DNA from: Viridothelium virens
Taxonomy: Eukaryota; Ascomycota; Dothideomycetes; Trypetheliales; Trypetheliaceae
Length of the DNA: 64,000 bases
Direction of reading: 5' to 3'
NCBI GenBank assembly: GCA_010094025.1
Contig: ML991813.1
Span: forward strand, 62,001 to 126,000
Numbering within the stretch: the first letter of the stretch is position 1; the number at the start of each line of letters is the position of its first letter. The notes beneath the pieces are model-generated. The model did not search any database. It was not told where the DNA came from and saw only the letters and a program-made list of their open reading frames with translations. The position numbers were made by a program, and so were the translations under genes. Below are positions 51,148 through 55,282 of the stretch, piece by piece.

Positions 51148-52899
51148 ATGGAGGCAGCTCCGTTAACTTTGGTATGCGTCTCTACCGCACGCTTTGCCCA
51201 CAAGGTACTGTTCGCTAACCTATACATAGGCGCATTCGCATGCTCGCGTCGCGTCTCTTGAGATTCAAAAGTCTAACGCCACTGTCGCCAGTAAAGAACA
51301 TGAGCTTGCCGCAGGAGAATTCGCAAAAGCGGCTGAGCATACACGGGATACGGAGGTACGGCGCTGTCCGTCGACAGTTTGAGACCATGGATAACTGAAG
51401 ACATGTTGTAGGCATTTCGAATACTGAAGGTGCTGGAAGATCACCATCATCATCTGTCCAGAATCCTCAAATCGGACTCAAAAGTGCCGCTGGCGACTCC
51501 GAAGGTCGACAAGGATCAAGATCAGGATCAAGGCACAGCCCTACCAACAACTCCTGAGCCTCCGAAAAATGAGACCGCAGCAACTCCACCAACTCTTCGT
51601 TCACCCTCTCCAGAACTGAAGGCCAAGTCTCCATCCGAAGCTCTTTCCCAGCGCAGAGCTTCCCGGAATGTGCCTTCGTCAATAGCAAGCAATTTAGCCT
51701 CAGCGCGTGGTATACCATCTAGTCAAAAACGTCGCCCACAACCTGTGTCTCCTGCTTTGTCAACAAACAATGTCGAAGGGAAGATATCCAATGATCCTTC
51801 ACACCAGTTATCTCCAATAGCACGAAGGGAACTTGCGCAACAGCGTCTTTCAGGCCGAGCACTGAGTGCGAAGACGTCTCCGGGGAGTCGGGTCACTTCA
51901 GAGACAATGCCCAATGCCTTGACTGCTGACGAAACTAATTCCAAAGTTTCAACCCCGCTGAACGCAGCTCAGCAATCCAGTGACGACTCGTTTCAAAGGT
52001 TTTACTCAAATATCAGGGAGCGTATCTCCTCCTTACCCTCATATCTTGCATTCGCTGGTCTTCCTCTTTCCCCTTCGTCCGAATCTACAAACGATGCACC
52101 ATCTTCGACCTATTCGAATAAGATACCAATAGACAAAACCACTACGAACACCCGTGGCCGTACTGAGGCAAATCTGAATAACATCTTTTCAGGCGCAGCT
52201 CTTCGTGCCGTTAAAGATGATAATGGTAACGGCTTCGGGGGCGCGGAAAGCTTTTACGTTGTTCCATCAACAGGAGGAACAGTCTCATACGCTGGCATCC
52301 TTGGCCGAGAAGATTCTGGACAGCGCATGCGTCTATCTAATGGTAGCACAGGTGAGGGAGAGGGTTCGGATGAATTCGTAGACGCCCTGGAAAAGCCACA
52401 GCCGAGCAGTCCAAGGGCCAGCCGGAATCGAGAAGGTATCATACACGGTCTCAACGAAAAGGGGAAGAAGACGACGGAGGAGCTTTTATTGGAGAACAGC
52501 AATTTGAAGAAAGGAATTGATATCTTAAGTAGTAGACTCGCTCAGTGGGAAGTCGGTAGCCAGGCCCAAAGCATGGCACTCAGGCAAAGCGTTATGGCAG
52601 GCAGGACAGGAGGAGCAGCAATTGAAGGAGGGTCCGACGAGCCAGCAGGTGAAGGCAATGATGGACTCAATGCTAAAGCCAAAGGAAAAGCTGAAGACAC
52701 AACTGTTGCAGTCGTCCAAGACCAGGCTTCTCAGGAAGAGAGGAAGAAGCTCGAGGAGAGGATTGGCAAATTAGAACGGGAGAATGAGAAGCTTCTCTCA
52801 GTAGTTGTTCGTTATAGGGAGAGATGGGAGAAGTTAAAAGAGGGAGCAAGAACCCGACGAGACACAGGAGCAAAAGTCGAAGAAAGTAATCAATTATAG
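51148..52899 (+). CDS. MIT-like, coiled-coil protein resembling NRBF2/Atg38
   Basis: Three exons (51148-51171, 51230-51355, 51412-52899) give 545 residues. The N terminus MEAAPLTLAHSHARVA with ELAAGEFAKAAEHTRDTE and AFRILKVLEDHHHHLSRI forms a three-helix MIT-like unit spread over all three exons. The middle is Ser/Pro-rich and disordered. The C-terminal part is coiled coil: EELLLENSNLKKGIDILSSR, then EERKKLEERIGKLEREN and VVRYRERWEKLKEG. MIT plus a distant coiled coil is the layout of NRBF2/Atg38, the autophagy-specific PI3-kinase complex subunit, but sequence alone does not prove this. An unrelated vesicle-trafficking MIT protein is the alternative. Confidence 0.75.
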
Positions 52900-53522
52900 C
52901 TGTGGTAAAACAATGCCAAAATATTGCTCTCGCCCGATTCCTACTTCAATCACGCATGACACGAGCTTTTTGTTCGTATTTGTCGCATCATACCCAGCAT
53001 TCTACCTTACTGCGGTCGGGAGGCTCTTCAACTGGTAATACATTTTATTAATGGTTCGCGTTCATATGAGCCACCGTGGTTATAACAGTAAAGTTGCAAT
53101 AACATGGATTGCATTTATCACCATTTGAGTAACCACCCGACCGCGATAAGGTACTTTGTAGAGCGTCTTCTCCCACAAATGCTCCGTAGCTAGAAGTACC
53201 AAAATATAGTTGAACGGTGAAAGTATTTGGCGTCTCCATAAAGGACTTAGAAGAGATGCATATACTCGTCTTGTGTTCCTCGGAGATGCTCCAGTGTCGA
53301 AATTTTTGTGCAGTGTGTGACGAATGCGGCCCTGGAGCCATGACGCTACCCGTAGGATAGTTTGCAGTGAGAACTTCTAGCGCCGTCTCCTCGACTTCTC
53401 TCACAACTGCGAAACCCCAGCGATCACAACCCACCAACTATAGCGAGCTCCTCAATTTACAATTGCCTGACCAGGGCGAGCGTCTACGGACTCCATTGTT
53501 TCTGAACAACGTAACCGCGCTT
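52900..53522. other. Intergenic, upstream of the arginine attenuator leader
   Basis: No plus-strand gene seen. A minus-strand frame at 53048-53437 is open for 129 codons but begins with TTG and has no motif, so I leave it uncalled. The right part is the promoter of the carbamoyl-phosphate synthase gene. Confidence 0.45.
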
Positions 53523-53784
53523 ATGCGTTGTTTCCAGACTATCTATACGTCGCAGGTAAGGTCCAACGCCCTGTCGTAGTCACCGCCATTCCACTTGCCT
53601 CTAAAGTTGAACGAAGCGAGCATTGGGGCGGCGTTTCGTGCTAAGCGATACCGTCCAAAATAAAATGACTGACATTGCATCAACAGGACTATATCTCTGG
53701 TATGTGCGATAACAGCGAAAGGCCATGAACCTCTTCGCTAAGTGGATTTTTGCAGACCACGTCTGGAAGGCTTCAGTGAACTAA
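53523..53784 (+). promoter_or_regulatory. Arginine attenuator peptide uORF (24 codons, three exons)
   Basis: Cis-acting uORF of the downstream carbamoyl-phosphate synthase gene. In Neurospora arg-2 and yeast CPA1 the attenuator peptide stalls ribosomes at its own stop codon when arginine is abundant. Here exons 53523-53555, 53687-53699 and 53756-53784 join to 24 codons plus TAA, the Neurospora length. The peptide contains TSQDYISDHVWKA. Aspartate 12 and tryptophan 19, the residues known to be needed for stalling, are in place. The junctions use good signals: GTAAGG/CAACAG and GTATGT/TTGCAG. The stop lies 36 bases before the main start at 53821. In this leader the peptide cannot be read from unspliced RNA, because the frame closes in the first intron. 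Confidence 0.9.
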
Positions 53785-53820
53785 GGCATTGAACACGCTA
53801 CTTAATATCTTTACGATACA

Positions 53821-55282
53821 ATGCTTGGGCGTATCTTCCGACCGGTAGGACCTACGGTCCCGGCTGCCCTCGCTCGCAGCTGGAAAGTTGGCCCACCGGC
53901 TCGATTTTTGGCTACTGTTGGAGAAAATACGAATCGAGTTTTGTCACCGCGTAAGCCGCGAGCTACACCTGTTTCTCATGAGCGGGCAACCTTCACGATC
54001 AGAGTGAGAGCCGAACGAACAAGAATCAACACCGGTCTCCAACTATTTGCTAACCACCTTTTCTTAGGATGGACCCATATTTCACGGCAAATCTTTTGGT
54101 GCGAAATCCAACATCTCGGGGGAAGCCGTCTTCACGACTTCTTTGGTTGGATATCCTGAGTCTATGACCGACCCCTCATACCGTGGACAAATCTTGTGCT
54201 TTACCCAGCCTCTGATTGGGAATTATGGCGTCCCCTCCTCCGCCAGAGATGAGCATGGCCTTCTCCGATATTTCGAATCTCCCAATATACAGGCATGTGG
54301 TATTGTTGTTGCCGACGTTGCCGAACAGCATAGTCATTGGACTGCCGTTGAGAGCCTCGGTGAATGGTGCGCTAGGGAAGGCGTGCCAGCCATCTCAGGG
54401 GTCGACACGAGGGCAATCGTGACCCATCTCAGAGAACAAGGTTCATCTCTGGCTAGGATAACTGTTGGAGAAGAATATGATGCCGACGAGGATGAGGCAT
54501 ACGTGGATCCAGAGGGTATCAATCTGGTACGAAGGGTGAGCACAAAGGCTCCCTTTCACGTGAGCTCCTCAGGCGATCTCCACATTGCCCTCATCGACTG
54601 CGGTGTCAAGGAAAATATCCTCCGCAGTCTGGTACGTCGAGGTGCGAGCGTCACCGCTTTTCCTTATGATTACCCTATCCACAAAGTCGCCCATCACTTC
54701 GATGGGATTTTCATCTCAAACGGCCCTGGCGATCCAACGCACTGCCAACAGACTGTGTATCACCTACGCCAGATCATGAACAATTCTCAGCTACCCATCT
54801 TCGGCATCTGCCTCGGACATCAGCTACTCGCGCTTGCCGCTGGAGCTCGGACGATAAAACTCAAATATGGCAATCGTGCTCATAATATCCCCAGCCTCGA
54901 CGTCACAACGGGCAGATGCCACATTACCAGCCAAAATCACGGCTACGCTGTTGATACTGCGACGTTACCCCCACAGTGGAAAGAATTCTTTGTCAATCTC
55001 AATGACTCGAGCAACGAGGGAATGATCCACACCTCCCGCCCAATTTTCAGTACCCAGTTTCATCCTGAAGCCAAAGGAGGACCGCAGGACTCCTCGTATC
55101 TCTTTGATGTGTACCTGGACAATGTGAGACAGCTGAAGAAAACACAGGCAGTGCTACAGCCGGAGAAGGATACAAGGCCGAGCCCGTTGCTGGTCGACCT
55201 GCTCTCCAAGGAAAGGGTAGGTGTGCAACCGGGAGTGCCGGAATTCAAGCACCAGCCGGCTGCCGTGGCTGCAGCGGCATAA
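53821..55282 (+). CDS. cpa1: Carbamoyl-phosphate synthase, arginine-specific, small subunit
   Basis: Glutamine amidotransferase subunit that supplies ammonia to the large subunit for carbamoyl phosphate in arginine synthesis; mitochondrial in filamentous fungi (Neurospora arg-2). Exons 53821-54003 and 54068-55282 give 465 residues. The first about 40 residues ([20 protein letters not shown] and onward) are basic and lack acidic residues, as in a mitochondrial presequence. The synthase N-domain reads [18 protein letters not shown] and [20 protein letters not shown]. The class I amidotransferase domain has the nucleophile in [17 protein letters not shown] and the His-Glu pair in [11 protein letters not shown]. 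Translation is expected to fall when arginine is plentiful, through the attenuator uORF at 53523-53784. Confidence 0.96.

Follow-up and report, generated by a model that had tools for sequence, protein, structure and literature searches.

A putative arginine attenuator peptide uORF split over three exons ahead of a CPA1-type gene in Viridothelium virens

The arginine attenuator peptide (AAP) is a textbook example of a eukaryotic arrest peptide that senses a metabolite. The initial annotation of a 64,000 nt stretch of Viridothelium virens DNA (assembly GCA_010094025.1, contig ML991813.1, positions 62,001 to 126,000 of the forward strand; this whole stretch is referred to below as the window, and its own numbering is used) proposed that such a peptide is encoded by an upstream open reading frame (uORF) dispersed over three exons, and that splicing of the leader might constitute a second layer of arginine control on top of ribosome stalling. 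The locus thus raises two questions: whether the frame is an AAP uORF, and whether its introns regulate it or simply have to be removed. The reading that we favor, and hold to be very probably correct, is that the AAP uORF of CPA1 is interrupted by two spliceosomal introns, that these are spliced constitutively, and that the resulting leader would confer classical arginine-dependent stalling.

The features on which this reading is based are collected in Table 1. The span that had been assigned to the uORF, 53523-53784, proved to be exact: joining of the exons gives 75 nt that read MRCFQTIYTSQDYISDHVWKASVN-stop, and the 24 codons and the TAA are readable once both introns have been removed. Since the introns fall at the Q11/D12 boundary and inside the D16 codon, both of them cut the conserved AAP core. 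The 13 nt size of exon 2, on which the initial annotation had not remarked, is a feature in its own right, and this exon carries Asp12. Transcription probably starts within the ATG-free stretch that precedes the uORF, or slightly upstream of it.

Table 1. Predicted features of the leader and of the putative CPA1 gene (window positions)
Feature	Position	Strand	Length	Remarks
ATG-free stretch	53343..53522	+		Adjoins the AAP start codon upstream; preceding ATG at 53340 (ATGs listed for 53201-53823)
AAP uORF exon 1	53523..53555	+	33 nt	M1-Q11; ATG in the context cttATG (C at -3)
uORF intron 1	53556..53686	+	131 nt	Phase 0; GTAAGG...CTGAC...CAG; ATG at 53665 inside
AAP uORF exon 2	53687..53699	+	13 nt (microexon)	D12 Y13 I14 S15 and first base of D16
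uORF intron 2	53700..53755	+	56 nt	Phase 1; GTATGT...CTAAG...CAG; ATGs at 53702 and 53725 inside
AAP uORF exon 3	53756..53784	+	29 nt	Remainder of D16 to N24, TAA stop
Spacer, uORF stop to CPA1 start	53785..53820	+	36 nt	No ATG
CPA1 exon 1	53821..54003	+	61 codons	ATG in the context acaATG (A at -3); without a separate Pfam match
CPA1 coding intron	54004..54067	+	64 nt	GTGAGA...CTAAC...TAG
CPA1 exon 2	54068..55282	+	404 codons and stop	Carbamoyl-phosphate synthase small (glutaminase) subunit

When the uORF peptide was compared with the PDB sequence set at E ≤10 a single chain was matched, the arginine attenuator peptide 2xl1 (E 4.4e-5), which we take to be that of Neurospora crassa arg-2. The alignment is gapless and collinear, residues 5-21 of the one pairing with residues 5-21 of the other; 10 of the 17 positions are identical, and six of the seven others are conservative, the exception being Q5 for P. 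Within the core (T9-A21) 10 of the 13 residues are identical, forming the pattern TSQDY-SDH-W-A, and the remaining three are conservative (I14 for L, V18 for L and K20 for R). The 24 codons found here equal the length of the 2xl1 chain, and the Neurospora peptide likewise stands ahead of a carbamoyl-phosphate synthase small subunit. The match leaves out residues 1-4 and 22-24. The latter form the C terminus, which reads SVN here and presumably LNA in Neurospora; the C-terminal tail of AAP probably matters little. The core features of AAP, an Asp followed by a Tyr together with a Trp, are present, and the Asp that is kept, Asp12, aligns with Asp13 of the Saccharomyces cerevisiae CPA1 uORF. Passages of PMC7969011 report that replacement of yeast Asp13 by Asn abolishes arginine-induced stalling and regulation. 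The yeast core, TCQDYIS (from the primer TCQ-N-YIS that introduces the Asn), resembles the one described here and differs in the place of its Asp, 13 instead of 12; splicing of the yeast uORF is not described in these passages.

The three-exon structure itself was examined by a spliced dynamic-programming search with residues 5-21 of 2xl1 as the query, over the 600 bases from 53221 to 53820. Up to two introns of 45-300 nt were allowed, at any GT...AG and with no use of further splice signals. The search recovered both uORF introns with a score of 71, the self-match of the query being 94. When one or no intron was allowed, the best scores at the same locus were 48 and 23, respectively. The maxima obtained with zero, one and two introns were 29, 38 and 47 for 500 dinucleotide shuffles of the 600 bases, and 24, 34 and 38 for 210 further stretches of 600 bases, taken from both strands of the window with the forward strand near the locus excluded. 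Together with the match to 2xl1, these scores bear out the identity and the three-exon structure that the initial annotation had read from the letters. The identity of the frame as an AAP uORF is thus well supported, all the sequence features tested being those expected. A second AAP was not found in the V. virens genome (30.7 Mb, 175 contigs) when this was scanned with a contiguous degenerate pattern of the AAP core at up to two mismatches, because the three matches, none of which was convincing, were fewer than the six obtained with the reversed control.

The splice signals look genuine. The donors, GTAAGG and GTATGT, belong to the class GTA[AT]G, which accounts for 195 of the 6831 GT dinucleotides in the window, and both introns end in CAG, as do 2175 of its 8516 AG dinucleotides; since these motif classes were picked after the sites had been seen, the frequencies are to be taken as supportive only. 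In addition, a CTRA motif starts 18 nt before the end of both uORF introns and of the CPA1 coding intron. A crude training of the donor consensus on 417 candidate introns (from the window, L087 and L088) found GTAAGG 4.3-fold enriched and GTATGT at 0.94-fold. The same training was noisy and ranked GTGACT top, and we regard it as uninformative; the intron 2 donor gets no support from it.

The uORF is located directly upstream of a gene for the small subunit of carbamoyl-phosphate synthase. Exon 2 of this gene contains the Pfam domains PF00988 (5.9e-44) and PF00117 (4e-53), and reaches 445 bits against NCBIfam TIGR01368, the cut-off of which is 307. Exon 1 possibly encodes a mitochondrial targeting region. 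The small subunit forms a stand-alone reading frame, and we consider the gene to be, as part of the reading favored above, probably the arginine-specific type (CPA1, arg-2 or cpaA) of a filamentous ascomycete-like fungus.

Constitutive splicing of this leader would place the 24-codon uORF 36 nt ahead of the CPA1 start codon. The two start contexts, weak for the uORF and strong for the main frame, suit leaky scanning: some scanning ribosomes would bypass the uORF AUG and arrive at that of CPA1. The start context of the CPA1 uORF is also described as inefficient in the consulted sections of PMC7969011. At high arginine, ribosomes translating the uORF would stall at its stop codon, so that the TAA at 53782-53784 would be the site of arginine-dependent stalling, and would block the scanning ribosomes behind them; at low arginine termination would be normal and leaky scanning would feed CPA1. 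The stalled mRNA could in addition be marked for nonsense-mediated decay, the junction left by the CPA1 coding intron being located 219 nt 3' of the uORF stop. Leaky scanning, stalling, the response to arginine and decay are all predicted here by analogy with the AAP family, for which they are described in parts of PMC7969011, PMC7049704 and PMC11550727; the relevant part of PMC7049704 reports CPA1-type mRNAs as decay substrates. In this scheme splicing would be a constitutive prerequisite and not a regulator.

To see what retention or skipping would do to the leader we modelled the alternative isoforms. As had been proposed, the intact AAP is lost when either intron is kept. With intron 1 retained the frame reads MRCFQTIYTSQVRSNALS and is accompanied by a second uORF of 11 codons, the AUG of which (53665) has an A at -3. 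With intron 2 retained it reads MRCFQTIYTSQDYISGMCDNSERP, and AUGs appear at 53702 and 53725, both with a G at -3, one of them being an in-frame internal start. The AUG at 53725 shares the frame of exon 3 and opens MNLFAKWIFADHVWKASVN (53725-53784), a truncated AAP-like peptide that keeps the C-terminal part and lacks Asp12. In the intron-retained forms the AAP start codon stays and leads into a short non-AAP frame. Skipping of the microexon gives MRCFQTIYTSQTTSGRLQ and adds no AUG. Because uORFs take the place of the AAP, the retained transcripts would be poorly translated at any arginine level instead of being derepressed. Retention would therefore swap an arginine-responsive block for arginine-blind uORFs, and CPA1 would not be freed. 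Among the modelled errors, skipping of the microexon is the only one that would look like a derepressing route.

These isoforms bear on the alternatives to constitutive splicing with classical stalling. The one that survives best, although we regard it as rather unlikely, is that the introns form a passive quality gate: CPA1 RNA that is unspliced or mis-spliced would, owing to its extra AUGs, be poorly translated and degraded, and therefore the enzyme would be made only from spliced, arginine-responsive mRNA. The AUG with an A at -3 and the 11-codon uORF contributed by intron 1, and the two AUGs contributed by intron 2, speak for such a gate. ATGs occur in introns by chance, however, and the form that lacks exon 2 would gain no extra AUG. 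This alternative is compatible with a constitutively spliced classical AAP.

A second alternative is regulated splicing, in which intron retention or microexon skipping would follow the arginine or growth state and switch between an arginine-sensing and an arginine-blind leader. We consider this very unlikely. The conserved core is destroyed alike by retention of intron 1, retention of intron 2 and skipping of exon 2, and the microexon would be the likeliest weak point; very short exons are often skipped. A fungal precedent is also available, as sections of PMC5640933 describe alternative splicing that adds or removes uORFs in the leader of the Neurospora S-adenosylmethionine (SAM) decarboxylase gene. 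Against regulation, the splice signals are consensus-like, and the uORFs gained by the retained forms would not allow a simple derepression of CPA1. RNA structure gives no hint of it either. Folded alone, intron 1 had a z of 0.14, with 105 of 200 shuffles folding at least equally well, and no Rfam family was found between 50000 and 58000 at E 1 or better. Regulation through RNA structure was rejected for this lack of signal, without being disproved by it. The idea that splicing adds a second layer of arginine control found no support: no sign of it was seen in these tests, and retention would work against derepression. A narrower version, in which regulated inclusion of the exon for Asp12-Tyr13, or regulated removal of the introns that flank it, decides whether the CPA1 mRNA senses arginine, has in our view only a slight chance of being right.

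Further observations concern pairing within the leader. The region 53400-53830 contains three short inverted repeats, which we judged to be due to chance. Exon 1 (53532-53539) and exon 3 (53761-53768) contain a perfect 8 nt complement (TTCCAGAC and GTCTGGAA); this is probably chance as well, though pairing in the spliced leader is possible.

It is still less probable that the frame is a decayed relic, AAP-like in appearance, that is seldom spliced together or has lost the ability to stall ribosomes. The dependence on two introns and so short an exon does make production of the AAP less secure, but an open frame of exactly 24 codons, the kept Asp12, the identity of 10 out of 13 core residues, the orderly splice signals, and start contexts that are weak and strong where expected all argue against decay. 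The chance that the resemblance to AAP is fortuitous is negligible, since, large as the search space opened by two free introns is, the score of 71 was not approached in any of the 500 shuffles or 210 window stretches, and the frame lies directly ahead of the one kind of gene for which AAP is known.

Carbamoyl-phosphate synthase small-chain sequences were matched at two further places in the V. virens genome, on C77 and C5. The C77 copy is a second complete match and lies ahead of an open frame of 1543 residues, running up to the edge of the extracted stretch, which is consistent with a putative fused, pyrimidine-type enzyme. In the spliced search, the best AAP-like frames with two introns scored 35 before the C77 copy (three 600-base stretches) and 31 before the C5 copy (four 600-base stretches). 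Because both scores are within the range of the main-locus shuffles, no AAP was found in these stretches at either place. The C5 copy (L088 4401-5300; about 42400-43300 of C5) consists of repeated small-chain-like fragments of the LVFQTGMVGYPESI type, in different frames and with stops between them, and is probably a decayed, internally duplicated copy. A 180-residue frame in it (L088 4687-5226) had no Pfam match.

Relatives of the locus were sought in collections of viral and genome contigs. With CPA1 exon 2 as the query no relative was found in either collection, and its first 56 residues gave none among the viral contigs. Among the genome contigs these 56 residues had relatives, the best 80 of 107 being all labelled as prokaryotic, with a top identity of 77%; the prokaryotic relatives carry no information on the uORF. 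No fungal relative was found by these searches of the two collections, as far as the best 80 of the 107 go, and the contiguous AAP-core pattern had no match in the viral contigs.

The proposed switch is well known; the unusual points of this locus are a core broken up by two introns, and a microexon of 13 nt. Introns may have been noted within the AAP uORF of some fungi. In the portions of the open-licence literature covered by our search we recognized no description of a spliced AAP uORF. AAP control of CPA1 orthologues is reported for yeast, Neurospora and Cryptococcus in sections of PMC7049704, according to which the Cryptococcus CPA1-type gene CND01050 has a conserved AAP uORF that is occupied by ribosomes, and its mRNA is raised in a upf1 mutant. 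The uORF of Toxoplasma ApiAT1, as presented in parts of PMC8370653, likewise encodes an arginine-responsive AAP-like peptide with a critical Asp, but precedes an arginine transporter gene, and its authors proposed convergence. The leader of the SAM decarboxylase gene (SDC motif) is, like the present one, a fungal leader in which splicing sets the presence of uORFs; it differs in that its alternative splicing was seen by RT-PCR, whereas here it is a proposal, and in that it has no AAP, as far as the excerpts of PMC5640933 go. Scans for unspliced uORFs would miss sensors like the one described here, in which three exons share the AAP and the essential residue falls in a microexon. The locus also lends itself to a clean test of the idea that an arrest peptide can be gated through the splicing of its leader. 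Should splicing prove constitutive, the locus would add one more fungus to those with a well-conserved control.

Finally, some minor observations were made around the gene. The general control site TGASTCA (cpc-1/Gcn4) is absent from 52900-53822; a TGACTGA, one base off TGACTCA, is present at 53666-53672, inside intron 1. Upstream of CPA1, a 489-residue frame (51430-52899) had no Pfam match. An open frame of 338 residues at 57135-58151 matches DUF1349 (PF07081, 1.1e-11).
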